A stretch of DNA of 64,000 nt from an uncultured Gammaproteobacteria bacterium (GTDB taxonomy: Bacteria; Pseudomonadota; Gammaproteobacteria; DRJJ01): assembly GCA_947258795.1 (NCBI GenBank), contig CAMYJU010000006.1:1-64000 (forward strand). Reading direction: 5' to 3'. Below are positions 5,626 to 61,236 of this stretch, piece by piece. A model generated the notes under the pieces. That model worked only from the letters and a program-made list of their open reading frames with translations. It searched no databases and was not told where the DNA came from. A program made the translations under genes and the position numbers. The first letter of the stretch is position 1; the number at the start of each line of letters is the position of its first letter.

Positions 5626-7800
5626 CTATTGTCTGCAAGCTGCCGGTAAGTATTTTGACTCCATTTCACCACTACATGACCAAATCACATTATTATCGAC
5701 CACCTCTGGAGACCATGAGACTGAATTCTGTTCACCGAATTGATCTATGGCCAGACTGATCGAAATAGAACCAGTTTTTTCTTCATAGCTCCAGTCATAT
5801 ATTATATCTGAAGTCGGTTTCCCTAAAATGGCTTTTCCTTCTGCAGTTGTAGGTAGCCGATTATTCGAGCTAATGAACTCAGATATCTGCAAGCGTTTCT
5901 GTGATGTAGCTGAAAATCCTTCTGAAACCTTAGCCCTGATGGTATAGTCGTTGTAGGCAGGTATCGCAATAGCAGCCAATATACCCGTTGCGGCTACAGC
6001 TGCCATACCACCGCCGCCGAACAGAATTTCGCCCGGATTGCTGTCATAACTGAACTCCATTTCCAGACGGGTTTCACTGGAATCGATTTTGAAACTGATA
6101 CCGCCATACTCCGGCAGACCGGCCTCACGCGCAGTTGGAAAAGCAAACAGGTCAACGGGACGATCTACCAGGTCACCCAACATCAAAAGTACAGAAAGAT
6201 TCAACTCATATACAAGCGCTGGTAAACCCTTGTTACGACCTGAGACCAGTAACATCGAGTTTCCCGGTTCAAGTTTTTGCTGGCGTTTTAACCAGGTGCC
6301 GACAGTCATACCATGCTTAATATAGTAACGGTCGATCAGCGGCTGGGGAGTTCCTGATATCAACAGGTAATCGGATTCCCGGGTCCAGTAAAAATGGCTC
6401 GGAAGCTGCATTACGCGCATCAGAATACGGAAAAGACCGCGTTGGGGTTCTTCTATTTCGGTATCATCAGCGGCTGGTAATGAAGGAAATACCATATGCC
6501 TGTATAATCTTCCTCCGATCATTTCTTCATCCGGTTTCTGTTTTAAGTATGTCTGCATACTGGTAATCATTTGTTCAAAGACGGCCTCATCCCTTAAACG
6601 TATTGCCAGATAACTTCCTGCGTCATCAAACAGTACGATCATCTCGGGGCCCAGTGCTGCAAACATATCTTTCACATCAAATCCAAGCTCCCTCTTCATC
6701 GATTCCATTGCATTACGATAATTCTGCATACTCTCTGGTGGGCTCATCATGGTGAGCTGCGCTTCCAGGCGCTTGATATCCTCTTTCTGGGGAAGTCCAA
6801 GCATAATCACACCGCGCAACTCTCCTGCTGCTGTCACACTGGCATCTGTGTTTACTACCGGTATTAAACTGCGCATTCCCTTGGCAGGCATTTCCAGTAG
6901 CATCGTAGCGCGTTGCTTGCCACCGGCACTGCCCATACCAAATGCAATCGCCTGTATATCCTGGGCGCCCATAACGGCAACTGCGCCTAATGCAGCCGGA
7001 TCAGCCATTTTGACTGTCATCATACTTTTGGGGTCCATCCACGCAAACAGACCCTGCCCTCCGCTATCAAGCTCGGATTCCAGCCTGTACATACGGTGAT
7101 CATCAACCTTTTGCATTAAAGTCAGCTGCTTTTCGATTTCTTCAGCAGGATTCATCGAACCTGCCAGCAGCATCAGACGTCTGTTTTTCAGGTCATATTT
7201 TGTGAAAGCTGGTAATCCAGCCAGAGTCAATACACCACGACCATCAGGACCTATCGGATTTGGTACAGACAATAACGGGTCCGCCTCGGCAGCCTTTTGC
7301 AGAAACTGGTTCAGTTTGTCAATTGAATCAAATTCCAGTATTACCGTTAACAGAATCTCTGGCATTGGGGCACCAGGATTGTCAGATTTCAGGATTGCCA
7401 CTTCCACAGGTGATTGAGCGTGAGCCAACATCAGTTGCCAAACCGGTTCTATTTCTTCTCCCAGTTCAGGCAATATGGTCTGTGTTACACCCATACGAAT
7501 GGATTTCAACGCATCTGCATAGGCCTGTGAACCCACCGCACGATCAAATACAGTACCGCTGGGCACCCCGATCATACCCCACAGGCTGGGTATACGAACA
7601 TAGGCAAAAGCGCTTTCGGGTAATACTGTTCGCAGCCATGGCGCTTCAGAGATAGCCGATCCTGTTGCGGGTTCAACTGGTCTCATTTCAGGAATGGCTT
7701 GCGTCTGTGCAGTCGAAGTCTCAGATTCGGGTTTGTCCGCACATCCGGAATAAATAATGACTGAAATACCGATTAATACGGCAAAAAGTGATCTTCGCAT
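5626..7800 (-). CDS. Large lipoprotein with a C-terminal type IV pilin-like domain
   Basis: A 724-residue protein with a lipoprotein signal (lipobox ending at IYSGC). Residues about 40-590 form a soluble region resembling DUF3352-type extracellular proteins; this assignment is tentative. From about residue 598 to the end it matches the body of a type IVa pilin: GILAAIAIPAYNDYT with the following helix, then a C-terminal WSC...AAC pair like the pilin disulfide loop. The N-terminal prepilin cleavage motif (G-F-T-L-I-E) is absent and replaced by a glycine run. So the pilin part cannot be processed as a normal prepilin. No pilus assembly genes adjoin it. Confidence 0.7.
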   Translation of the reverse strand: MRRSLFAVLIGISVIIYSGCADKPESETSTAQTQAIPEMRPVEPATGSAISEAPWLRTVLPESAFAYVRIPSLWGMIGVPSGTVFDRAVGSQAYADALKSIRMGVTQTILPELGEEIEPVWQLMLAHAQSPVEVAILKSDNPGAPMPEILLTVILEFDSIDKLNQFLQKAAEADPLLSVPNPIGPDGRGVLTLAGLPAFTKYDLKNRRLMLLAGSMNPAEEIEKQLTLMQKVDDHRMYRLESELDSGGQGLFAWMDPKSMMTVKMADPAALGAVAVMGAQDIQAIAFGMGSAGGKQRATMLLEMPAKGMRSLIPVVNTDASVTAAGELRGVIMLGLPQKEDIKRLEAQLTMMSPPESMQNYRNAMESMKRELGFDVKDMFAALGPEMIVLFDDAGSYLAIRLRDEAVFEQMITSMQTYLKQKPDEEMIGGRLYRHMVFPSLPAADDTEIEEPQRGLFRILMRVMQLPSHFYWTRESDYLLISGTPQPLIDRYYIKHGMTVGTWLKRQQKLEPGNSMLLVSGRNKGLPALVYELNLSVLLMLGDLVDRPVDLFAFPTAREAGLPEYGGISFKIDSSETRLEMEFSYDSNPGEILFGGGGMAAVAATGILAAIAIPAYNDYTIRAKVSEGFSATSQKRLQISEFISSNNRLPTTAEGKAILGKPTSDIIYDWSYEEKTGSISISLAIDQFGEQNSVSWSPEVVDNNVIWSCSGEMESKYLPAACRQ

Positions 7801-9433: not shown

Positions 9434-9844
9434 TCACGCCAGCGCATTATGTTTAATCAGCAGAAGCTCATTCCCTCCCTTGTCCGATATACTGTGTTTC
9501 ACCTCATCAACCATGCTTTTGATCAACCGTATGCCATATCCACCTGGATTATTATTACTAAGCGGGGGCGTATTATTCCCAAGCTGATAGGAGGCCGTAT
9601 CGAATACCGGTGCCTGATCCCGTATTGAGATTATCAGGTCAGAGTGACTGGCAGATACATCGATCTCGATTTCGCCCGACCTGCCCTGGTAGCCATACAG
9701 AATGATATTACTTACCGCCTCATCAACGGCAAGTTTCAGATCGCCTATCAGTGAGCTTTCAACCCCGATCGAGGTGGCTGAACTTGAGATATAATCCCTT
9801 ATATCTTCCAGGTCAGACAGCCCTGCACTGATTTTAAGCAACAT
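9434..9844 (-). CDS. RsbW-like anti-sigma-type serine kinase (GHKL ATPase)
   Basis: A 136-residue single-domain GHKL kinase of the RsbW/SpoIIAB type. It has the N box DEAVSNIILYGY, a G1-like motif IRDQAPVFD, and the G2 glycine motif PGGYGIRLI. Such kinases phosphorylate a STAS antagonist on serine, or bind a partner instead: the partner switch. It is third in an operon behind the STAS gene (32 bp gap) and the cNMP-SpoIIE phosphatase gene, which gives all three classical partner-switch components. No sigma factor lies nearby, so the output is unknown. Confidence 0.85.
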   Translation of the reverse strand: MLLKISAGLSDLEDIRDYISSSATSIGVESSLIGDLKLAVDEAVSNIILYGYQGRSGEIEIDVSASHSDLIISIRDQAPVFDTASYQLGNNTPPLSNNNPGGYGIRLIKSMVDEVKHSISDKGGNELLLIKHNALA

Positions 9845-9876
9845 TAAGACCCGTTTATCTAACTATTGCTGGCACG

Positions 9877-10251
9877 CTAGAAGGAATCTATCGCACTGTC
9901 CAGATCGTCAAAGATATCTATGTATGCATCAAATCCAAGTGTCTTGAAAATCTTTCTAACTTCTTCTGATGGGTTCGCGATTCTCAGGTTGTCAGATTTA
10001 ATAGCGTTTTCATTATCGGACTTGTTCAATTTGTTGGTAATGGCGTGGATGGCACGAAGACCGGCGCTACTCATATAGGAAACATTACCCATCTCCAGAA
10101 TGATATTTTCAGCGCCGTTACCAATTGCATCACTCGCTGCTGACTCGAGATTACCCTGGGTATTGGCATCCAGCGGGCCGGTCAATTGCAAGACTGTGGC
10201 ATTGGCCGAACCTTCGTTTGTTGATACTGCGACATGTAATACATTACTCAT
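9877..10251 (-). CDS. STAS-domain anti-sigma factor antagonist
   Basis: A 124-residue STAS protein of the SpoIIAA/RsbV type. The motif MGNVSYMSSAGLRAI contains the phosphorylatable serine at the expected place before GLR. It should be phosphorylated by the adjacent RsbW-like kinase and dephosphorylated by the adjacent SpoIIE-type phosphatase. The N-terminal region is slightly extended compared with minimal STAS proteins. It sits between those two genes with gaps of 40 and 32 bp, so the three are very likely co-transcribed. Confidence 0.88.
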   Translation of the reverse strand: MSNVLHVAVSTNEGSANATVLQLTGPLDANTQGNLESAASDAIGNGAENIILEMGNVSYMSSAGLRAIHAITNKLNKSDNENAIKSDNLRIANPSEEVRKIFKTLGFDAYIDIFDDLDSAIDSF

Positions 10252-10291
10252 CTTTTCATCCTCTTATTATGAACTTCCAGCCAGTATTTAT

Positions 10292-11542
10292 TTAAGGGCT
10301 GCGATTGATCGCCAGAAAGGTGGTGTCATCAAACTGGCTTACACCATTAGTAAAATTATTCAACGAATCCAGTATTTCAGGCAACAACTTATCCGATGAA
10401 CCATTAAAGTTTCCGAGTAAGTCAAGTAGCCGTGTCTCCGTATACTGCTTCCCTTCTGCTGATTGCGCTTCTGTTACACCATCTGTAAATATCAGCATAC
10501 TATCACCGTGATCCAGTTTTGTTGTAGCGGTTTTATAACTGGCATCGGGAAAAACCCCAACGACAGGTCCCGTCGTATCCAGTCTTTCCTTGATATGTTT
10601 ATATGAGAATATGACCGGTGCCTCATGCCCGGCATTGATATAATTCAATACTCCTGTATCAGGGTCAAGCAAGGCGAAAAATACCGAAGCAAACATACTG
10701 GTGTCGCCGTGGGTCCTGGCAATATAATTATTGGTGAGTTGAATACTGTTTAGCAGGCACCTCTCCACATTGTCGTCCAACTCTACACTATCAGGTGTTT
10801 TATCAATTTCAGTTCCGGAACCGGCAGACCAGTTCCCAAAATCCCCTGACAAGGCCGTCGCCCTCAGCAGGCTTCTGAACAAGGTCATAAATAAGGCTGC
10901 ACCCACCCCTTTGTCACAGACATCACCTATAACCAGGCCTATACGGCTGATAGATTTGACCGTGAACACATCATAAAAATCACCTGCAACCTCATATGCC
11001 GCCTTGAAGTAAGCCGAAACATTCCAGCCCGGCGTATCGGGTAGTGCCTGAGGCAGGAAATGCGATTGAATCTCTCTCCCGATCTCAAGCTCTCTTTCCA
11101 GTGTGCGCACACGCATTGATCTGTCGGTGACCTTGTGTGCCATACTCTTCTCGCGTGCACACAACATTGACACAATGGATTTAGTAAAACCCTCCTCGTC
11201 TGAGAGCGTGTCAAACAGTTTCTTGCAATTGATTTCCAGTAGTGTTGTGTCATCTTCTGCTGTTATGGAAGCAGTTCTTTCAAGGGAGCCCAATGAGGCG
11301 ATTTCGCCAATGACGTGCCCGGCAGACAGTGTGTTCAGGAGCAAATCGCCATCATGAACACGAATATGCCCATCAAGGATAATGTACATTGATTCACCGG
11401 ACTCACCTTTCTGAAAAAGAGTCTCTCCGGTGTGTATAGAGACCTCATTGCCTATTTCTGCGGCCTGACGAAGCAGCTTTTCAGGGGCATTCTCCATGAA
11501 TCTGCTTTTCTTGAGGAATTCATAGTATCTTTCTGAATCCAT
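10292..11542 (-). CDS. cNMP-binding domain fused to SpoIIE/RsbU-type PP2C phosphatase
   Basis: The protein is 416 residues from the ATG at 11542; a TTG at 11593 would add 17 residues that look non-native. Residues about 15-125 form a cyclic-nucleotide-binding beta roll. Its phosphate-binding cassette has both key residues (IGEIASLGSLERTAS: glutamate and arginine). A linker helix is followed by the PP2C phosphatase with GDFYD, GDVCDKGVGAALFM, NAGHEAP and FTDGVTEA metal motifs. Predicted role: dephosphorylate the adjacent STAS antagonist under cyclic-nucleotide control. It heads the three-gene partner-switch operon. Confidence 0.88.
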   Translation of the reverse strand: MDSERYYEFLKKSRFMENAPEKLLRQAAEIGNEVSIHTGETLFQKGESGESMYIILDGHIRVHDGDLLLNTLSAGHVIGEIASLGSLERTASITAEDDTTLLEINCKKLFDTLSDEEGFTKSIVSMLCAREKSMAHKVTDRSMRVRTLERELEIGREIQSHFLPQALPDTPGWNVSAYFKAAYEVAGDFYDVFTVKSISRIGLVIGDVCDKGVGAALFMTLFRSLLRATALSGDFGNWSAGSGTEIDKTPDSVELDDNVERCLLNSIQLTNNYIARTHGDTSMFASVFFALLDPDTGVLNYINAGHEAPVIFSYKHIKERLDTTGPVVGVFPDASYKTATTKLDHGDSMLIFTDGVTEAQSAEGKQYTETRLLDLLGNFNGSSDKLLPEILDSLNNFTNGVSQFDDTTFLAINRSP

Positions 11543-12178
11543 ATTATAATCTCGGCCTGGATTCCTCTTGGTTATTATTAGGCCAGTCTTCAACTGGAAT
11601 ACACACTGTATTTTAGTACTGGCAACCTGTAAAAACAGGTTGTCAGGATAGAAAAGACTAGCAAAAAGAATAAAAGCCCTTTTAGCAAAAGTCCAGCATG
11701 GTACACAATCTCTTGTTGATATTCGGGTCCAACGAATATGCTTATGGGTAGAAACACCGGCATAAAATCAGATTGGCCTTATTTATACATTGCACGGTCC
11801 TGGTGCCCGGAACAGGCAGGCCGACAGACTTACCAGTTCCAGTAATTGTTTGTGTTTACGCACATAGTAATAAACCAGGGTAGTTCATACACAGATGTCT
11901 GTTAACCAGGCATTTAATATTCAAATGAATACAGTAACTTGAATAATCTGAGGGCATTATCATAAATTTAAAGAAATCAGAGTTGACTATACACCCATTA
12001 ATCATCAGGATATTATTATTCGACAATATGGTTTTTTTGTCTGGCCAGGGAATCACCAATCCCGATTCTGTCACATAAACAAAGCTGAACCAGGATTCTG
12101 GTGGCCATTATGTTCCGGGTAATGTATATCAGTTAATATCATTGCATGCCTGATACAACACTCTGAATAAAAAAAATA
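11543..12178. other. AT-rich intergenic region between divergent signalling operons
   Basis: About 640 bp separate the cNMP-phosphatase operon from the nucleotide-carrier-like operon, so promoters for both should lie here. No gene is convincing. A minus-strand open frame near 11800-11900 lacks a start codon, and a 72-codon minus-strand ORF (11856-12074) has non-protein-like composition. A segment at 11661-11695 resembles one at 18238-18272 (see findings). Confidence 0.5.
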
Positions 12179-14854
12179 TTGATAGACAAGTTTTTCAAAG
12201 TATTACTGGTTAAAGAAAATGAAAAAGGCTTTATGCTTTATTTCATTCTTTTTTTTCTAGTCATTGGTAGCGGCATGGCCATTGGCAGAGGGACGACTGA
12301 CGCCCTGTTTTTCAAGCGTTATGGCATCGAGTATCTGCCTGTTATGTATATCATACTTGGTTGCCTGTTATTCCTGACAAGCACATTCTATGCTGCCTTT
12401 TCTGATCGACTGCCACCTGAAAAATTCTTCAGAATCCTGAATAGCATCTTGATCTCATTACTGGTCATGGCATGGGTATCGATGTCATTTTTTAACTTCA
12501 AACACATCTATCCGGTATATTTCCTGATTTATGAAATAGCCTCTGAAGTTCTGCTTATCCATGCCGCCCTGTATCTGGCAAAAAACCTAGATGTAGTTCA
12601 GGCAAAAAGGCTGACGCCAATCGTACTGGCTGGCTCCCAGATAGGTACTATCATTGGCGGATTGTTTCTTGCTCTTAGCGCCCCTCATCTGGGTGTGCAG
12701 AATCTTCTGTTGGTATGGTGTATGCTGCTTTTTCTCGGCATCATAATGATTACATGGCATCATAAGCGTACAGGTCACTCACTCTATTTCAGGCATCCCA
12801 GAAAACATTCAAATAAGATGAAGCAATCGATGATCGATATATCGGTTGGCATGAAGTATATGAAAAAGTCTGACCTGGTCAGGTATTCATCATTTGCGTT
12901 GTTTTGTATGGTAATTGTATTCTATATACTTAGTTATACAGCAAACAGAATATATAACGATACCTTTAAGACTGAAGAAAGTCTGACTGCATTTTTTGGT
13001 TTAGTGGCCGTTATCACCAACTCTCTGGCCCTGGTATTCCAGTTATTTATTACCAACAGGGTTATCCAGCGTTTTGGAATCAAGACCGTTAATTTGTTTT
13101 TCCCGTTTTCGACCATGATCAGCTATCTGTTTTTGATCTTCAGTTTTGCATTACCATCAGCCATCGTTACCAGTATCAATAAAGACTCAATAATGCCTGC
13201 CTTTCGGAATCCGGTCAGGAGTCTTTTTTATAATGCCTTACCAAATTATATACAGGGACGCGCCAGGGCCATGTCCGTCGTAGTCGTTATTCCACTTGCA
13301 CTACTGGTTTGCGGTGGTGTACTTTGGACGGTACAACAAATGAATAACCCGCTCTATTTTCTGTCTATCGGTCTCATCCTGACCTGTTTTTATGCCTATT
13401 TTAACCTTCGTATGAACAAGGCCTATGTTCTGGAAATAGTTTCGAACCTAAGGAACAAGCTTTATATACCGGGAAAACATGAACAGACAGCTATCAAATC
13501 CGGTGGTATTGGAATCTTTGAAGAGTTACGGGAAGGAGTGGAACACAATGATGACCAGATCTGTATTGCATATGCTAAAACACTGGCAAACACCTTCCCC
13601 GAAAAAGCGGTACCGATATTGATAGAACGTCTGCAAGGAGCTATCAGTTCGACGAGAAATGAACTGTTTCAGATATTGGTACCACTCAACCCTGAAAAGT
13701 TACATGGATATTTATGGCAGGAGTTCGGGACTGCAGATATTCATTTGCAGACTACTATTTTGAAACAATTATTCAAACTCGGAGATGACCGGGCCATTTC
13801 AGGAATTGAGCAGAAACTGATCGACCCCAATCCACGTCTCAGGGCAGCCGCCATATATGGTTCTATTCTGCACAGACCTGATGATATACGTGCCTATGAG
13901 CTGCTAAATGCTCTATTAAAATCTGATGACCCTGGTGAAGTGCTTTCCGGACTGGAGACCTTGTATGAGCTGGGTGAAATCGACAGTAAAATAACCAGCC
14001 ATATTGAAAAATCCCATTTCATAAAACTCCTTTCGAACAGTAACAGCCGTATCTGGAACGCCTCTCTCAGGGTGATCTCATTATGGCCTTCAAGCAGCCT
14101 GCCGGAGCTTGTTCAATACCTGAAAAATGCATTCAATACCACCAATGAACCGGATGTGCGCTCCCAGGCAATCAGATGCGCCCATGTCCTGGGTAGTGAT
14201 GATGAGCATGACTTTATTGTAGCCGCACTGGATGACTCCCACCCACTGGTCCGTGAAGACGCAATCAATCTACTTAAGGACGAGAATCAAAAAGAGACTT
14301 TTACCAGCTGGATTATTGACACAAATCTTGGGTCACCCAGGACTCAGTCAACCATTTTGTCAAAACTCCAGGAAGCGGGAACACCTGTCCATATAATGGA
14401 AAATATTGCCCTGGCAAAGGCTCTGGATGCCGAGATGATTGAGCAGGTTATTATTACACTTAAGAATCATCATGAAATTCTCGACCTGGCCCCTGTCGAA
14501 CTACTGGTATATGCATTACAGGAACGACTCGAGCAGGTTATTGACCTTACCTTGCAGGCATTAAAATCCATAGAAGACACAACAACAATCAATCTTATTC
14601 AGGCAGGAATCAAATGCAGTGACAAGCGTATTGCCTCACAATCCATGGAAGCTTTAAGAAATATAGAAAACCAGAAACTTGCCATCATTCTGGCCAATAT
14701 TATGGAAGGTTATTTAGCCAGTGGCCCTGCAAAAGCTCAGTCTATACAGACATTCAGATCCGCTGAACACGCACTCGACTGGTGTAGTAATCGCCATGAT
14801 CCGTGGCTGAAGGCGTGTGCTAACGATGCATCACGGGTAATTACCCAGGAATAA
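12179..14854 (+). CDS. ATP/ADP-carrier-like MFS protein with C-terminal HEAT repeats
   Basis: An 891-residue protein. Residues about 18-425 are a polytopic membrane domain of the nucleotide-transporter (NTT/Npt, ATP:ADP antiporter) type. It opens with the FFKVL...KGF...TTDALFFKRYG pattern typical of that family. From about 455 to 870 it has HEAT-like alpha-helical repeats (for example PRLRAAAIYG and HPLVREDAINLL). The start is uncertain: TTG at 12179 is the first possible codon after an in-frame stop and has no clear ribosome site. The next ATG, at 12233, would clip conserved residues. Neighbours with cNMP-binding domains suggest regulated transport or a signalling scaffold. Substrate unknown. 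Confidence 0.75.
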   Translation: MIDKFFKVLLVKENEKGFMLYFILFFLVIGSGMAIGRGTTDALFFKRYGIEYLPVMYIILGCLLFLTSTFYAAFSDRLPPEKFFRILNSILISLLVMAWVSMSFFNFKHIYPVYFLIYEIASEVLLIHAALYLAKNLDVVQAKRLTPIVLAGSQIGTIIGGLFLALSAPHLGVQNLLLVWCMLLFLGIIMITWHHKRTGHSLYFRHPRKHSNKMKQSMIDISVGMKYMKKSDLVRYSSFALFCMVIVFYILSYTANRIYNDTFKTEESLTAFFGLVAVITNSLALVFQLFITNRVIQRFGIKTVNLFFPFSTMISYLFLIFSFALPSAIVTSINKDSIMPAFRNPVRSLFYNALPNYIQGRARAMSVVVVIPLALLVCGGVLWTVQQMNNPLYFLSIGLILTCFYAYFNLRMNKAYVLEIVSNLRNKLYIPGKHEQTAIKSGGIGIFEELREGVEHNDDQICIAYAKTLANTFPEKAVPILIERLQGAISSTRNELFQILVPLNPEKLHGYLWQEFGTADIHLQTTILKQLFKLGDDRAISGIEQKLIDPNPRLRAAAIYGSILHRPDDIRAYELLNALLKSDDPGEVLSGLETLYELGEIDSKITSHIEKSHFIKLLSNSNSRIWNASLRVISLWPSSSLPELVQYLKNAFNTTNEPDVRSQAIRCAHVLGSDDEHDFIVAALDDSHPLVREDAINLLKDENQKETFTSWIIDTNLGSPRTQSTILSKLQEAGTPVHIMENIALAKALDAEMIEQVIITLKNHHEILDLAPVELLVYALQERLEQVIDLTLQALKSIEDTTTINLIQAGIKCSDKRIASQSMEALRNIENQKLAIILANIMEGYLASGPAKAQSIQTFRSAEHALDWCSNRHDPWLKACANDASRVITQE

Positions 14855-14856
14855 CC

Positions 14857-15303
14857 ATGTCTGACATATTTGAAAGAATATTATTGTTAAAAAAATCACC
14901 CATATTTTCAGAGGTAACCACTGAGGATTTGCGTACTGTGGCAATGGAACTGGATGACGAACAGTATTTCAAAGGTGACAGGGTTTTCGAAATCAATAAC
15001 TATGGCGACCATATGTACATATTACAGAATGGTAAAGTTGGTATTTCACTTGAATCTGACCCCAAATGTGATAAATATGTAACCATCCTTAATCAGGGTG
15101 ACTGTTTTGGGGAAATGAACCTGCTTGATGACCAGCCCAGGTCGGCGACTGCAGTTGTACTTGAAGATGCTAATCTTCTATCACTGGAAAAATCACGGCT
15201 TCATGGACTGATAATGCACTACCCCGAACTCAGCCTGGGAATACTTAAAAGCCTGAGTATGCGTTTAAGAAATGCAAATCTGCTTGCTAAAGAAAGTAAA
15301 TGA
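14857..15303 (+). CDS. Stand-alone cyclic nucleotide-binding protein with intact phosphate cassette
   Basis: A 148-residue protein made of one cNMP-binding beta roll. The phosphate-binding cassette is complete: FGEMNLLDDQPRSATA, with glutamate for ribose and arginine for the cyclic phosphate. No DNA-binding domain follows. It starts 2 bp after the stop of the HEAT-repeat carrier, so translation is probably coupled. In related bacteria the carrier, HEAT and cNMP domains may occur in one chain. This supports a physical complex here, as inference. Confidence 0.85.
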   Translation: MSDIFERILLLKKSPIFSEVTTEDLRTVAMELDDEQYFKGDRVFEINNYGDHMYILQNGKVGISLESDPKCDKYVTILNQGDCFGEMNLLDDQPRSATAVVLEDANLLSLEKSRLHGLIMHYPELSLGILKSLSMRLRNANLLAKESK

Positions 15304-15335
15304 CAACTGGATCGATCATTAATGAGACCGGAAAT

Positions 15336-15539
15336 ATGCAAATAGCCAGAAAATTCATACTGGGTCTATGCACTTCTATAGGCCCAATATTAACACATGC
15401 CGGTACCATCATACCCGCGCCTGAGGCAGATCCACATTACACTACAGCCGGTTTCTTCGACATACATGTATGTAACTGGCCAACCGGTAGAAATAAAATA
15501 TATGCAGAACAGGAATATCATGCTCGTAAGTATGGTTAA
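15336..15539 (+). pseudogene. Truncated secreted-protein fragment (67 aa)
   Basis: ATG at 15336 follows a GAGACCGG ribosome-like site. The product has a clear signal peptide (MQIARKFILG... to THA-G) followed by about 30 residues of plausible mature sequence with the segment DIHVCNWP. After that the frame continues into unrelated residues and stops. It looks like the start of a longer exported protein whose remainder was lost. A real short secreted peptide cannot be excluded. It lies between two cNMP-protein genes. Confidence 0.35.
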
Positions 15540-15704
15540 TTGCCCAGCTTGCAATTATTATGAAAATATTCCGGATTTGTTATTAATTTTCCTGTAACAG
15601 TATATATAATACTTATATAACTGTTGCTCAGTAATTTTCACTATGCTAGTCAAGTTACTGTAATAAAGAATAATTTTAAAATAATAATCGGTCATGGGAT
15701 AACA

Positions 15705-16256
15705 ATGGATATTTCACCAAAAGACTTTTGCAGCAAGTTTGCACCCATATGTCAAAAAGAAAAAGAAGCTGACATACTGCTCAATGCCATGCAGCAAAGG
15801 AATTGCAGCAAAGGCGATATACTCCTGGAGCCCGGCCAGACTAATGACACGCTATATCTCGTGTGGTCAGGCAGCCTCACTGTATCACTGCACCAGGAAA
15901 ACGTGACAATCGAACTCGGCAGCATATTACCTGGAGGCTGGACTGGCGAGCTGGGCTTTATAGAGCCAGGCCCGGTCACCGCGACGGTCATGGCCGAGGA
16001 GGATACAAGCCTGCTATGTTTAGACCAGGATGGCCTGCAGGAATTACTGGACAAGGATCCGGATATCGTCATCCAGTTATTACACACATTTTCTCTTAGC
16101 CTGGCAGAAAGGCTTAGAGCTACAAAACAACATGTATTCAAACAGATTGCCGAAGATAACTTCCGATTGTCAAAAGGAGCGCCATCTGATAAACCTGGTA
16201 GATGGTACAAGTATCTCGGACGTAAATTAATGGGGATTTCCGGAGAAAGATCATGA
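15705..16256 (+). CDS. cNMP-binding-like protein with degenerate phosphate cassette
   Basis: The protein is 183 residues from the ATG at 15705, which follows GGGATAAC; upstream in-frame TTG starts are less likely. One cNMP-binding beta roll is present, but its cassette reads TGELGFIEPGPVTATV: the glutamate remains while the arginine that contacts the cyclic phosphate is replaced by valine. A different ligand, or a purely structural role, is therefore likely. The C-terminal helix is basic. It overlaps the next cNMP-domain gene by 4 bp (ATGA), so the two are translationally coupled. Confidence 0.8.
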   Translation: MDISPKDFCSKFAPICQKEKEADILLNAMQQRNCSKGDILLEPGQTNDTLYLVWSGSLTVSLHQENVTIELGSILPGGWTGELGFIEPGPVTATVMAEEDTSLLCLDQDGLQELLDKDPDIVIQLLHTFSLSLAERLRATKQHVFKQIAEDNFRLSKGAPSDKPGRWYKYLGRKLMGISGERS

Positions 16257-16831
16257 ATCTGACCAAATGCCTGAATCAGATCCCCGCCTTTTCCGATTTT
16301 ACAGCAGACGAAATTGATATGCTGGCGCAGGCAATGGCAACCAGGGAATACCCTGAAGGACATGTTTTTATTAAGGAAAAAAAGTCCTGTGATGGTATGT
16401 ACCTGATCCTTGAGGGTGAAGTGGTCGTTACCAGGGAAAGAGAAAACGGGGGCGTCGATATACTTGATCGACTGGGCAATGGAGAACTGTTTGGACTCAT
16501 ATCACTGATCGACCATGGTGTCAGAAGCGCAACCTGTACCGCAACCAACCAGGTTACCGCTGCCTACTTGCCAAGATCAGCTTTTCAGCTGCTTTATCAG
16601 GCGCATACGCATTTTGGTTATCATTTCCAACACATGATTGCACGTCAGTTGGCACATGATACCATGATTTATAATGATGCCCTGATGCACGGGATTGCGA
16701 ATAAAAACAAATATCATGCCTATCACGCCATTAAATTTACCCGTACCTACAAGGGGCCGGAAAGAAGGGAAATATCAAGACGCGATAAGGATCGGCGAAA
16801 TAATATTAGTCCGAAGATTGTACAGGATTGA
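16253..16831 (+). CDS. cNMP-binding-like protein with basic C-terminal tail
   Basis: A 192-residue protein, with start ATG at 16253 overlapping the upstream stop. Residues about 5-120 form a cNMP-type beta roll. The cassette reads FGLISLIDHGVRSAT, so the arginine is kept but the glutamate is replaced by leucine. This is the opposite defect to its upstream neighbour. A helical region follows, then a strongly basic tail with the motif GPERREISRRDKDRR, a kind seen near PilZ and other second-messenger proteins. No helix-turn-helix is visible. The complementary cassette losses suggest the two proteins could act as a pair. Confidence 0.8.
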   Translation: MNLTKCLNQIPAFSDFTADEIDMLAQAMATREYPEGHVFIKEKKSCDGMYLILEGEVVVTRERENGGVDILDRLGNGELFGLISLIDHGVRSATCTATNQVTAAYLPRSAFQLLYQAHTHFGYHFQHMIARQLAHDTMIYNDALMHGIANKNKYHAYHAIKFTRTYKGPERREISRRDKDRRNNISPKIVQD

Positions 16832-16912
16832 TGATTTCAGCATTCGATAAGATATTTACAAGATTAACTATGATCAGCGTTTGTAGCCTCTGATTCTATT
16901 TCTTATACGCAC

Positions 16913-18187
16913 GTGCAAAAACTCAGCCCTGACAGCGACAAGTCTTACGAACAGTTGAAGCTGCTAATTGCTGTACTCCAGGAATTTTCCACTACCCTGG
17001 ATATTGATACCACGCTGCTACATGTTACCCACTTGGTAAAACAGTATCTTGATGCCGAAGGCGTTTCACTATTCCTGCTTGAAAATGATGGGCGCGAACT
17101 GGTATGCCGGGTATGTGCAACAACATCAGCCGATATCACCGGCATCAGACTGGGTTCAGATGAAGGCATAATAGGTCGGGCACTACGTGAAAACACGACA
17201 CAGATGGTGCGTGATGTCAGCAAGGACCCGGATTTTTACAAAGAAGTCGATGTTAGCAGTGGCATTACCACGCGATCGATTTTATGCGCGCCACTGGTTC
17301 TGAAGAATAACCGCTTTGGTGCACTGGAGGCCATTAACAAGAATTCTGAAAGCGGCCTGTTTGATAAACAGGACCGCAATCTACTGACCATTCTGGCTAA
17401 TACCTCGGCTATGGCGATACATAACTCTCGTATGGCGGAAGAACTGGTATTTCAGGAGCGCACCAAGCGCGAACTGGAACTGGCGCGTGAGATCCAGGCG
17501 GCCCTGTTACCAGGGGACAACCCGGACTATCCGGTCTATGGTTACAATATTCCGGCACGTATGGTGTCGGGTGACTTTTACGACCACTTTCAGCTCGGTG
17601 ATGGTCGTATCTGTTTTAGTCTTGGAGATGTATCTGGCAAAGGCATTAACGCATCCCTGTTAATGGCCAAGACCACCTCGATATTCAGATGCCTCGGCAA
17701 GCGTATTGCATCTCCATCCGAGCTGATGTCAGTACTGAATAACGAATTATACGCAAATGCGACACATGGCATGTTTGTGACCATGGTAGCCGGAATTTAT
17801 GATCCACAGAAAAAAAAGCTGGTCATGGTCAACGCAGGTCACCAGCCACCCCTGTTAAGGAAGCGTGGTGGTCAGATAACCGCACAGGAATATGCAATGC
17901 CTCCATTGGGAGTTTTACCTAATATCGACTACGATGAATACGAGCTACAACTTGATGACGGTGACCTGTATATATTTACCGACGGCCTGACAGAGTGCTG
18001 GTTCCATCGCGAGAAACAGCTGGGTGATGAAGGTGTGATTGATATGATCAACCGCTTTTCGGACATCAATGCAGCAGACCGCTTACATGCAATCGTACAA
18101 AACGTCACACGCTGGAAGCGCGAACATAGCGGTTACCTGTTTGATGATGTCACCATGTTGCTAATTTCAGGGGCCTGGAAAGGTTAG
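16913..18187 (+). CDS. GAF-domain SpoIIE/RsbU-type PP2C phosphatase
   Basis: A 424-residue protein with a GTG start at 16913. Residues about 10-170 are a GAF sensor domain (IDTTLLHVTHLV, IIGRALREN and CAPLVLKN segments). Residues about 190-424 are a PP2C/SpoIIE phosphatase with SGDFYD, GDVSGKGINASLLM, NAGHQPP and FTDGLTE motifs, so the metal site looks intact. Its likely substrate is a phosphorylated STAS protein; the nearest is at 9877-10251. It ends the cNMP-protein operon, with an 81-bp gap after the basic-tail protein. Confidence 0.88.
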   Translation: MQKLSPDSDKSYEQLKLLIAVLQEFSTTLDIDTTLLHVTHLVKQYLDAEGVSLFLLENDGRELVCRVCATTSADITGIRLGSDEGIIGRALRENTTQMVRDVSKDPDFYKEVDVSSGITTRSILCAPLVLKNNRFGALEAINKNSESGLFDKQDRNLLTILANTSAMAIHNSRMAEELVFQERTKRELELAREIQAALLPGDNPDYPVYGYNIPARMVSGDFYDHFQLGDGRICFSLGDVSGKGINASLLMAKTTSIFRCLGKRIASPSELMSVLNNELYANATHGMFVTMVAGIYDPQKKKLVMVNAGHQPPLLRKRGGQITAQEYAMPPLGVLPNIDYDEYELQLDDGDLYIFTDGLTECWFHREKQLGDEGVIDMINRFSDINAADRLHAIVQNVTRWKREHSGYLFDDVTMLLISGAWKG

Positions 18188-18311
18188 TCTGGTCTGTTAT
18201 CATGCTGCCATCAGCTTTTTGTCCGTGAGCTATTAATCAAAAAGGACATAAAAGCCCTTAATAAAAATCCAGAGTGTCTGGTTCCATTGCTGAAGACCGC
18301 CGCCCTACTAC

Positions 18312-18752
18312 TTAGACCGTAAACTCACCTATCCATCGGTTACTCATATAATCTATCTTGAGTCGACGAGGCCGCATTTTCAATGCCTGTTCGCTATCAA
18401 GGACGCGTTTGGCAGGGTGATTTTCCGCAAATTCAACAGGATCACAGCTATCCGATTCTACCGTACTAAAAATCACTGAAAGCCTATCATTTACCGGAAC
18501 CGTCTCCAGGTCCAGATTGTCATGGAACAATACTCTTTTTAACACAACACAGGAAAAATAGAGTTGCATCTCAACGTACAAAGGATTGGAACGAGACTTC
18601 AGGACCCGGTCGGCACGGCCAGTATAGCTAACGTTCAGTTCGCTACCTTTGTATGCCATAGTGGTATGACGGTTATATGGGTTTAATAGCCTGTCCAGCC
18701 TTGCAGGGATATTAAATAGATTGCCAAATGTAAAATAACTACTGTTCTTCAA
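18312..18752 (-). CDS. Conserved-looking protein of unknown function
   Basis: A 146-residue frame from a TTG at 18752, or 115 residues from the ATG at 18659; neither has a good ribosome site. The protein is basic, mixed alpha/beta in composition, without signal peptide or membrane segment. The C-terminus (RRLKIDYMSNRWIGEFTV) looks folded. A PilZ domain was considered, but its RxxxR and NxSxxG signatures are missing. It lies tail to tail with the GAF-phosphatase gene and is followed upstream by the cyclase-FHA gene on the same strand. No function is assigned. Confidence 0.55.
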   Translation of the reverse strand: MKNSSYFTFGNLFNIPARLDRLLNPYNRHTTMAYKGSELNVSYTGRADRVLKSRSNPLYVEMQLYFSCVVLKRVLFHDNLDLETVPVNDRLSVIFSTVESDSCDPVEFAENHPAKRVLDSEQALKMRPRRLKIDYMSNRWIGEFTV

Positions 18753-18836
18753 AATAAATATACTTTCGTAATTTCAGTATTTAGTGGACAATCAAATATG
18801 CGTATATGTTCCCGGGGCCGATACGCTTTGGATAAA

Positions 18837-19730
18837 TTATAGACAAACATACCGAATGACATGCTTACTATTGATATCTGCTGATTCGCCCAGGCCTATC
18901 ATGCCTATACCGACCAGTGGCACCTCTTCACGGCGTAAATAGATATCCTGTTTCTTGCCCATATTTACATAGGTACCATTGGTGCTTTCATCCACCAGCA
19001 CAAACTTGCCACGACGATATTCTATATGCGCGTGCACACGTGAGGAATAACCGGAGTTTACTGATAGATCGCAATTCTCATCGCGTCCAATACGGAAACC
19101 CGGCTCATTTGCCTTGATATTGTATTCGTTACCATTGTAATACATGGTGAGTAACAGGGCCGCTCCATCCTTGTTATCATGGATAGCGGTGTGCATTCGG
19201 GTCGCATTTTCAGGCTGCCATAAAACTTCATATATGGTGAGCTCCTCTTCCTTACCCTTGATTGGAGTCTTGTCAAATTCACGTATCATGAGTATATGCT
19301 TGGGCGACAGGTTCAGCACGGTATCATGCGTGGTGATAATCTGTTTGCCCTTGGCAATGGCCGTGACCCTGGCAGCTACATTGACAGCGTCTCCAAACAC
19401 ATCACCTTCCTTCTCGATCGCCATGCCATGGTGAAGTCCAATACGTACAGATGGCAACGTTTCAGCGCCGGTACACTGTTCGAGTAACTCCTGAATATTG
19501 CAGGCCGCCTCAACAGCCGCATCCTCGTCATCAAACCGACACATCACCTCATCACCGATATACTTGATGATAGTGCCGCCAGCCTCCTTGATAGTCTCTG
19601 ATGCGATATTAAGACAGCGTTCGATAATCTGTTGCGCTTTCTGATCGCCATTCTTCTCATAGAGCTTGGTACTACCCTCTACATCGACAAACATAATGGC
19701 CGTTTTTTCGTAATCTTCACTTATTCCCAC
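18837..19730 (-). CDS. Class III adenylate/guanylate cyclase with C-terminal FHA domain
   Basis: A 297-residue protein. Residues about 8-180 are a class III cyclase. The two metal aspartates appear in MFVDVEGST and KYIGDEVMCRF, the base-selecting lysine precedes IGDE, and the DVFGDAVNVAARV region supplies the transition-state asparagine and arginine, so catalysis looks possible. Residues about 215-290 are an FHA phosphothreonine-binding domain (FRIGRDENCDL, SRVHAHIEY, DESTNGTYVN). It would make cAMP or cGMP near four proteins with cNMP-binding domains, and the FHA domain could couple it to a kinase. No Ser/Thr protein kinase of the eukaryotic type is seen in the window. Confidence 0.9.
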   Translation of the reverse strand: MGISEDYEKTAIMFVDVEGSTKLYEKNGDQKAQQIIERCLNIASETIKEAGGTIIKYIGDEVMCRFDDEDAAVEAACNIQELLEQCTGAETLPSVRIGLHHGMAIEKEGDVFGDAVNVAARVTAIAKGKQIITTHDTVLNLSPKHILMIREFDKTPIKGKEEELTIYEVLWQPENATRMHTAIHDNKDGAALLLTMYYNGNEYNIKANEPGFRIGRDENCDLSVNSGYSSRVHAHIEYRRGKFVLVDESTNGTYVNMGKKQDIYLRREEVPLVGIGMIGLGESADINSKHVIRYVCL

Positions 19731-60767: not shown

Positions 60768-61236
60768 TCAGGCAGGTGCCAGACTGCGTACAGTAATCGG
60801 CTGCTCAAAACCCTTGATTTCAATGATTTGCTCAGGGGAATAGTGAAAGCGTGGGTTGCCTTTCGTTTCTGAGTAAACGAACTCTGGCACAATAATAGAC
60901 ATCGGACCTGCAAACCCGCATAAACGCGCGGCCAGGTTCACGGCTTCCCCGACTATCGAGTAGTCCAGGTGCTCGGGAGAACCGATATTACCAATCACGG
61001 CCGGACCCTGACTGATCCAGCAATACACCGTCAAAGTGAGCTTCCCGAGAAAGCCTGATGGCCTGCTCACCACTCTCTGCCTCAACGACCCGATATCCAT
61101 CTTTCTCCAGGTATCGCCGGAGTAACACGCACATGATTGACTGGTCATCAACAACCAGAATGGTTTTGTGTTGCTGTTTTATCACTTTATCAATGGGACT
61201 TGTACGCCATTTCCTCAATAATATTAAATAATTCAA
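60768..61236 (-). pseudogene. Response regulator-class III cyclase fusion with internal deletion
   Basis: Minus-strand codons from 61236 encode about half of a receiver domain (TILVVDDQSIMCVLLRR to the phospho-aspartate region HFDGVLLDQ). At about 61020 the frame shifts into the end of a class III cyclase (GPAVIGNIGS, then VGEAVNLAARLCG) that runs to 60768. The rest of the receiver and most of the cyclase with both metal aspartates are lost. The gene is inactive. Together with the HD-GYP tail it shows loss of second-messenger genes here. Confidence 0.8.

Follow-up and report, generated by a model that had tools for sequence, protein, structure and literature searches.

Proteins in which a nucleotide transporter (NTT) domain is fused to HEAT repeats have been described before, and Major, Embley, and Williams (2017) reported their pairing with cyclic nucleotide-binding domains (CNBDs) and suggested cyclic AMP (cAMP) control of uptake (PMC5381601). 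Partner switches, in which a kinase and a phosphatase act on a STAS protein, are known from the SpoIIAA and RsbV systems, and in Gram-negative bacteria such a switch can act on a target other than a sigma factor, as SypA/SypE does (PMC8256260). Both kinds of genes lie side by side at positions 9434 to 19730 of a 64,000-nucleotide stretch of DNA (here called the window) from an uncultured gammaproteobacterium, which is positions 1 to 64,000 of contig CAMYJU010000006.1. A preliminary description of this DNA presented the region as a single island built around the carrier. Having compared the locus with related genomes, we consider it probable that the region consists of two separable modules, a carrier cassette (12179-15539) and a partner switch, together with a common cyclase gene, operating by the mechanism that we propose below.

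Results

The two modules lie on opposite strands on either side of a divergent intergenic region and comprise the following features (cNMP, cyclic nucleotide monophosphate).

9434..9844 (-): RsbW/SpoIIAB-like serine kinase (W), 136 amino acids; HATPase_c_2, E = 9.7e-22
9877..10251 (-): STAS protein, 124 amino acids, with predicted phosphoacceptor Ser62 (YMSSAG); STAS, E = 9.5e-17
10292..11593 (-): cNMP-binding domain fused to a SpoIIE (PP2C-type) phosphatase, by Pfam (cNMP-SpoIIE)
11594..12178 (no strand): divergent intergenic region; scan for CRP-like sites negative
12179..14854 (+): NTT (ATP/ADP-translocase-fold) domain, about residues 1 to 430, fused to a HEAT-repeat domain (HEAT_2)
14857..15303 (+): cN1, single-domain cNMP-binding protein (cNMP_binding by Pfam), partner of the carrier
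15300..15539 (+): remnant third cassette gene, 79 codons, with a signal peptide and the motif GFFDIHVCNWP

We compared 20 NTT-HEAT neighborhoods, 14 of them of the window's type, and found in none of the 20 the kinase, the STAS gene, or either of the two SpoIIE/PP2C phosphatases of the locus (10292 and 16913). The modules also come apart in individual genomes. G044, an uncultured gammaproteobacterium of another family, carries the two on separate contigs, an intact NTT cassette on C14 and the switch on C35. A second relative, G184, encodes the closest NTT-HEAT protein (68%) in an intact cassette and has no switch kinase, and both G184 and G290 combine the cassette with a GAF-SpoIIE gene but possess only an Mla-linked kinase. 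Given that each module occurs without the other in related bacteria, the two are probably not one machine, and the comparison did not support the notion of a single unit built around the carrier; the carrier-switch association is local and does not generalize. The preliminary description had also expected homologous clusters to keep the cyclase and the cNMP proteins. This is so for cN1, but neither the cyclase nor the link between carrier and switch is kept.

Some points weigh against this reading. On C35 of G044, approximately 13 kb from the switch, a decayed cN3 gene (46 to 62% identical to the cN3 of the window) comes after a second intact copy of the third cassette gene, so that some proximity of cassette and switch pre-dates the window genome. 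The synteny of the switch rests on two genomes, since only one switch ortholog was found. Our genome samples were partial, the contigs of several relatives are short (4 to 6 kb), and the assembly of G001 reaches a completeness of only 81%. We read the cassette and the switch as having been neighbors for some time while being retained or lost independently. The stretch of C35 just mentioned (14307-15407; L071:6308-7405) contains the third-gene copy, itself interrupted by a short string of N, and the cN3 remnant with its broken frame; NTT-HEAT and cN1 are both missing there. Elsewhere, in G184, IS3-like transposase genes lie directly beside GAF-SpoIIE (L068:1-1160), a possible cause of reshuffling.

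The proposed partner switch, with a phosphatase that would sense cNMP, was supported, as the gene order and the catalytic and phosphosite motifs are kept in a second family. In a 274-genome sample of the class, cNMP-SpoIIE had a single ortholog (70%), in G044, and a scan of genome contigs with the same protein recovered that same ortholog on CAMYJO010000035.1. Contig C35 retains the order cNMP-SpoIIE, STAS, W (locus L058; STAS ortholog, 70%; W ortholog, 54%). A GAF-SpoIIE gene lies 1.6 kb further along on the same strand, so that closeness of GAF-SpoIIE to the switch is common to two families. In the window, W has an intact N-box (DEAVSN) and G-box (PGGYG), and Ser62 of the STAS protein, which by motif occupies the position of SpoIIAA Ser58, is invariant among four aligned STAS proteins. 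The CNBD of the phosphatase retains Glu97 and Arg106, and its ligand motif, GEIASLGSLERTAS, is retained as GEIASLGSLKRTAS in the 70% ortholog; the protein possibly starts at a downstream ATG near 11542. Judged by these sequence features, 10292, STAS, and W form a partner switch with a likely second-messenger input through the CNBD. Of seven whole genomes searched, G044 and the window genome alone yielded a switch-type W. Near the switch, G044 also encodes a 616-amino-acid glutaminase-STAS-cNMP-binding fusion protein (L058:17188-19038).

The carrier cassette is more widely distributed, with carrier matches in 19 genomes of an even, 369-genome sample of the class (E <= 1e-20). A gap of only 2 bp separates the NTT-HEAT gene from cN1 in the window, and in the 14 window-type loci cN1 always either comes directly next (11 loci) or is fused to it (3 loci), with its cNMP-contact motif (G-E ... 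R-S/T-A) conserved in 18/18 homologs. Other NTT-HEAT loci carry further genes of this kind: twelve extra cNMP proteins are spread over nine loci (CRP-type regulators, cNMP-GGDEF, MMPL-cNMP, patatin-cNMP, and others), and class III cyclases lie near NTT-HEAT in L036, L037, and L054. When 20 phosphatase neighborhoods were put through the same screen, none of the extra cNMP-protein kinds seen near NTT-HEAT appeared; the probability that all twelve would fall on one side by chance (317 kb versus 219 kb) is about 0.002, a hand-worked figure that is rough because the genomes are unmatched. Because the extra cNMP proteins all fall near NTT-HEAT loci, the association of the carrier with cNMP looks real and extends beyond the window, in line with what had been proposed for this locus.

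The pairing itself is already published, but a third component goes beyond PMC5381601. Of the 13 loci in which this could be judged, 11 have, after cN1, a gene whose product, an exported protein of approximately 245 amino acids, bears the motif GFFDIHVCNWP (intact in L035 to L041, L043, L045, L047, and L048; for example, L035:7382-8122 and L038:6904-7680). A Pfam search matched this protein to no family, and its structural model consists of two tandem immunoglobulin/fibronectin-like beta sandwiches (mean predicted local distance difference test score [pLDDT], 88). The stub in the window retains the first ∼50 of these residues, no other copy was found in the window genome, and the cN2-cN3-GAF-SpoIIE genes start just past it. 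A conserved 70-bp segment at about 15410 to 15482, considered as an intergenic RNA element, was rejected as one, being coding sequence of this remnant. The third component, the full conservation of the cN1 ligand residues, and the recurrent cNMP and cyclase neighbors make the carrier cassette a testable signaling unit.

The carrier domain of 12179-14854 was invisible to single-sequence Pfam searches, even at E <= 10. A profile built from 13 sequences of the N-terminal half matched the solved Chlamydia ADP,ATP carrier 9j3n (E = 1.1e-8), and the best Foldseek matches of an AlphaFold2 model (mean pLDDT, 86) were NTT1 structures from Arabidopsis and Chlamydia. VIA-align Z scores for the model were 37.9, 37.5, and 34.0 against 9j3l, 9j3m, and 9j3n, respectively, compared to 31.0 for LacY, the best other protein of the major facilitator superfamily (MFS). 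Since ORFs (open reading frames), Pfam, profile, and model agree, the gene content is real and the assignment as an ATP/ADP-carrier-like HEAT protein with an NTT-type MFS fold is sound as far as fold and family go. For AtNTT1, ATP/ADP exchange requires four charged residues, K155, E245, E385, and K527 (PMC10654386). The window protein was aligned to Chlamydia Npt1 only, where the Lys of RDTKD corresponds to Thr in RGTTD by profile alignment, and the other charged positions have no secure AtNTT1 numbering. Nucleotide exchange is not assured, because the charged positions are not all kept, and we use "carrier" as a statement of fold and family rather than of transport, since the signature residues are not securely mapped. 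A contig scan with the carrier sequence alone, which had few usable patterns, gave no match. Two more NTT-like proteins of ∼430 amino acids, without HEAT repeats, are encoded on contig C2 of the window genome (L002 and L003).

The remaining features of the region lie downstream of the cassette.

15624..16256 (+): cN2, cNMP-binding fold with the ligand Arg replaced (GELGFIEPGPVTATV), by Pfam and alignment
16253..16831 (+): cN3, cNMP-binding fold with the ligand Glu replaced (GLISLIDHGVRSATC), by Pfam and alignment
16913..18187 (+): GAF-SpoIIE (GAF and SpoIIE by Pfam), member of an Mla-linked phosphatase family by tree
18312..18752 (-): 146-amino-acid ORF outside both modules, without a match in Pfam, NCBIfam, or PHROGs
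18837..19730 (-): class III nucleotide cyclase fused to FHA (Guanylate_cyc and FHA by Pfam), predicted adenylate cyclase

All ten ORFs of the preliminary description were located at 9434 to 19730, and Pfam and NCBIfam confirmed every domain that it had named. It had missed the remnant gene at 15300-15539 (+), the ORF at 18312-18752 (-), and the ligand-residue deficiency of two cNMP domains. Its count of four cNMP-domain proteins stands insofar as Pfam finds the domain in all four, but the Glu and Arg of the phosphate-binding cassette (G-E ... R-[ST]-A) are both present at 10292 and 14857 only. In alignments cN2 is without the ligand Arg and cN3 without the ligand Glu, and the cN2/cN3-like proteins of G044 are degenerate too. 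We would not yet count cN2 and cN3 among the cAMP receptors; they are probably degenerate cNMP folds serving as protein-interaction or altered-ligand subunits. Two G044 genes (C35:37788 and 38360) were considered as cN3 and cN2 orthologs and rejected, the decayed copy at 14307-14635 being closer to cN3, and for this reason we do not claim cN2-cN3 as conserved members of the switch.

The cyclase-FHA protein holds D16, K56, D60, D110, N117, and R121, which we take to be the metal-binding Asp pair (D16 and D60), the adenine-specifying Lys and Asp (K56 and D110), and the transition-state Asn and Arg (N117 and R121). Its predicted product is cAMP. Membership of the cyclase in an island did not hold up: it is unlinked elsewhere, occurring as a stand-alone gene in 50/229 class genomes. 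G044 was absent from the matches listed in that search, and in the loci read we did not see the gene beside switch genes. In one relative a CNBD protein adjoins cyclase-FHA (L143). The window genome has two further places with cyclase domains, and no evidence ties the cyclase at this locus specifically to either module. A 128-amino-acid ORF at 60768-61154 of the window matches only the C-terminal half of the class III cyclase domain and is probably a fragment.

The second phosphatase of the locus belongs to a family with a different usual setting. The GAF-SpoIIE profile matched 41/303 class genomes (E <= 1e-60), with orthologs at 69 to 78% in the f44 genomes. Outside the window's own clade, 17 of 19 neighborhoods hold MlaE, MlaF, and usually MlaD together with SpoIIE, STAS, and a W that is either a protein of its own or part of a fusion (L114-L122, L124-L128, and L130-L132), the phosphatases being of GAF or HDOD type. 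The GAF-SpoIIE clade of the window nests among these Mla-operon phosphatases in the tree. On contig C3 the window genome itself carries such an operon (L077:5140-11269), with HDOD-SpoIIE, W, STAS, MlaF, MlaE, and MlaD, as well as MlaA-like and MlaC-like proteins named from a reading of their sequences only. The canonical phosphosite YIDSSG is present in all 19 Mla-type STAS proteins examined, and L077-type operons apparently encode a complete partner switch acting on an Mla-type lipid transporter.

The paper reporting the MlaFB structure posed as an open question how active MlaB is regulated, possibly via phosphorylation, and a phosphomimetic at the equivalent MlaB position weakens MlaF binding (PMC7367683). 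Given that the GAF-SpoIIE family normally sits in SpoIIE-kinase-STAS-MlaEFD operons, phosphoregulation of the Mla-type STAS is directly testable, and the sister phosphatases in these operons bear on that question. We found no literature pairing MlaE with SpoIIE among the open-access papers searched; most subscription papers lay outside the search, and novelty is unproven.

Scans for control elements added little. CRP-like sites (TGTGA-N6-TCACA, up to 2 mismatches) were absent from the divergent region and, over the whole window, fewer than the shuffled mean; promoter and terminator scans did no better than chance, and an Rfam search gave no credible match. A plasmid origin was rejected, NTT-HEAT having a single weak plasmid match. 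For cNMP-SpoIIE the matches all stay below 60%; they include a phosphatase of Deinococcus that has STAS genes beside it and, in Nostoc, an operon of STAS, kinase, and phosphatase genes. Upstream of the region, at 5626-7800, the window encodes a predicted 724-amino-acid protein of unusual architecture with a C-terminal type IV pilin domain (residues 622 to 723).

Discussion

In the mechanism that we propose, cN1 would bind a cyclic nucleotide and, most likely, gate the NTT-fold inner-membrane transporter through the HEAT scaffold. Separately, W would phosphorylate STAS on Ser62 and cNMP-SpoIIE would dephosphorylate it under cyclic-nucleotide control; unphosphorylated STAS would then bind W, freeing its other partner, or act directly on a target encoded elsewhere. 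GAF-SpoIIE could provide a second sensory input, either to the local STAS or to the Mla-operon STAS on another contig, and both modules may receive cAMP that cyclase-FHA adds to the cellular pool.

Where GAF-SpoIIE acts is the closest of the questions that this mechanism raises. That it serves the Mla-operon STAS on C3 rather than the local one, its position here being incidental, is a serious possibility that we place a little below even: its relatives sit in SpoIIE-W-STAS-MlaE-MlaF operons, it nests among them, and G001, G184, and G290 all have GAF-SpoIIE yet only an Mla-linked W, but it lies near the switch in G044 as well, and an HDOD-SpoIIE is already present in the window genome's own Mla operon. 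We find it harder to credit, though still worth considering, that the switch is a classical anti-sigma system in which W holds a sigma factor of the genome that the cNMP phosphatase releases. Models of RsbW/SpoIIAB and of anti-sigma antagonists do pick up W and STAS, W with a score under the cut-offs, and the window genome has 11 Sigma70_r2 places; the preliminary description was nevertheless right that no sigma factor is adjacent, no sigma gene being found at the locus either here or in G044, and SypA/SypE illustrates that the target of a Gram-negative switch can be of another kind.

A single functional island, with the cNMP made by the cyclase driving both phosphatase and carrier and the carrier as output of the switch, seems to us improbable. 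Its genes are contiguous within 10.3 kb and include two intact cNMP sensors, cNMP and cyclase genes gather at NTT-HEAT loci elsewhere, and the third gene and decayed cN3 on the G044 switch contig attest to older, partial proximity; set against this are the 20 other NTT-HEAT loci without a switch gene, the separation in G044, the cassettes of G184 and G290 without a switch kinase, the unlinked cyclase, and a divergent promoter region that scans found to be free of CRP-like sites. Slimmer still is the prospect that the window switch is a copy that broke away from the SpoIIE-kinase-STAS-MlaEFD operons, forming a cyclic-nucleotide-gated switch with Mla-type lipid transport as its output; if true, both phosphatases would set the phosphorylation of an Mla-acting STAS, and cAMP would control outer-membrane lipid traffic. 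An anti-phage system of the Pycsar kind, made of the cyclase and cNMP-binding effectors, is scarcely credible. PADLOC profiles for PycC and PycTIR match the cyclase and the CNBDs, but these matches are limited to generic cyclase and CNBD domains, Pfam finds no TIR domain, and the cyclase stands alone in the 50 genomes noted above; we rejected this candidate, as the cyclase is not paired with a TIR or transmembrane effector.

Two separable modules thus being the reading that we favor, each can be set beside its closest described relative. Like the NTT-HEAT/NTT-HEAT-cNBD family, the cassette has an NTT fused to HEAT repeats and a separate cNMP-binding gene next to it; the window lineage differs in adding a conserved third, exported protein, truncated in the window, and the passages of PMC5381601 consulted describe no partner-switch neighbors. 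The carrier shares the fold of NTT1 from Chlamydia pneumoniae and Arabidopsis (9j3n and 9j3l; Z, 34 to 38; profile match, E = 1e-8), with 14% identity and the charged positions incompletely kept. As in SpoIIAA/SpoIIAB/SpoIIE and RsbV/RsbW/RsbU, a STAS protein, a HATPase_c_2 kinase, and a SpoIIE phosphatase occupy one operon with motifs intact, whereas the window switch has a CNBD sensor, no cognate sigma gene, and the STAS motif SSAG in place of DSSG. Compared to the SpoIIE-W-STAS-MlaEFD operons of Gammaproteobacteria, the locus is without Mla genes and its W and STAS are distant (STAS 16% identical), but it shares with them the GAF-SpoIIE phosphatase family and the same three switch components.

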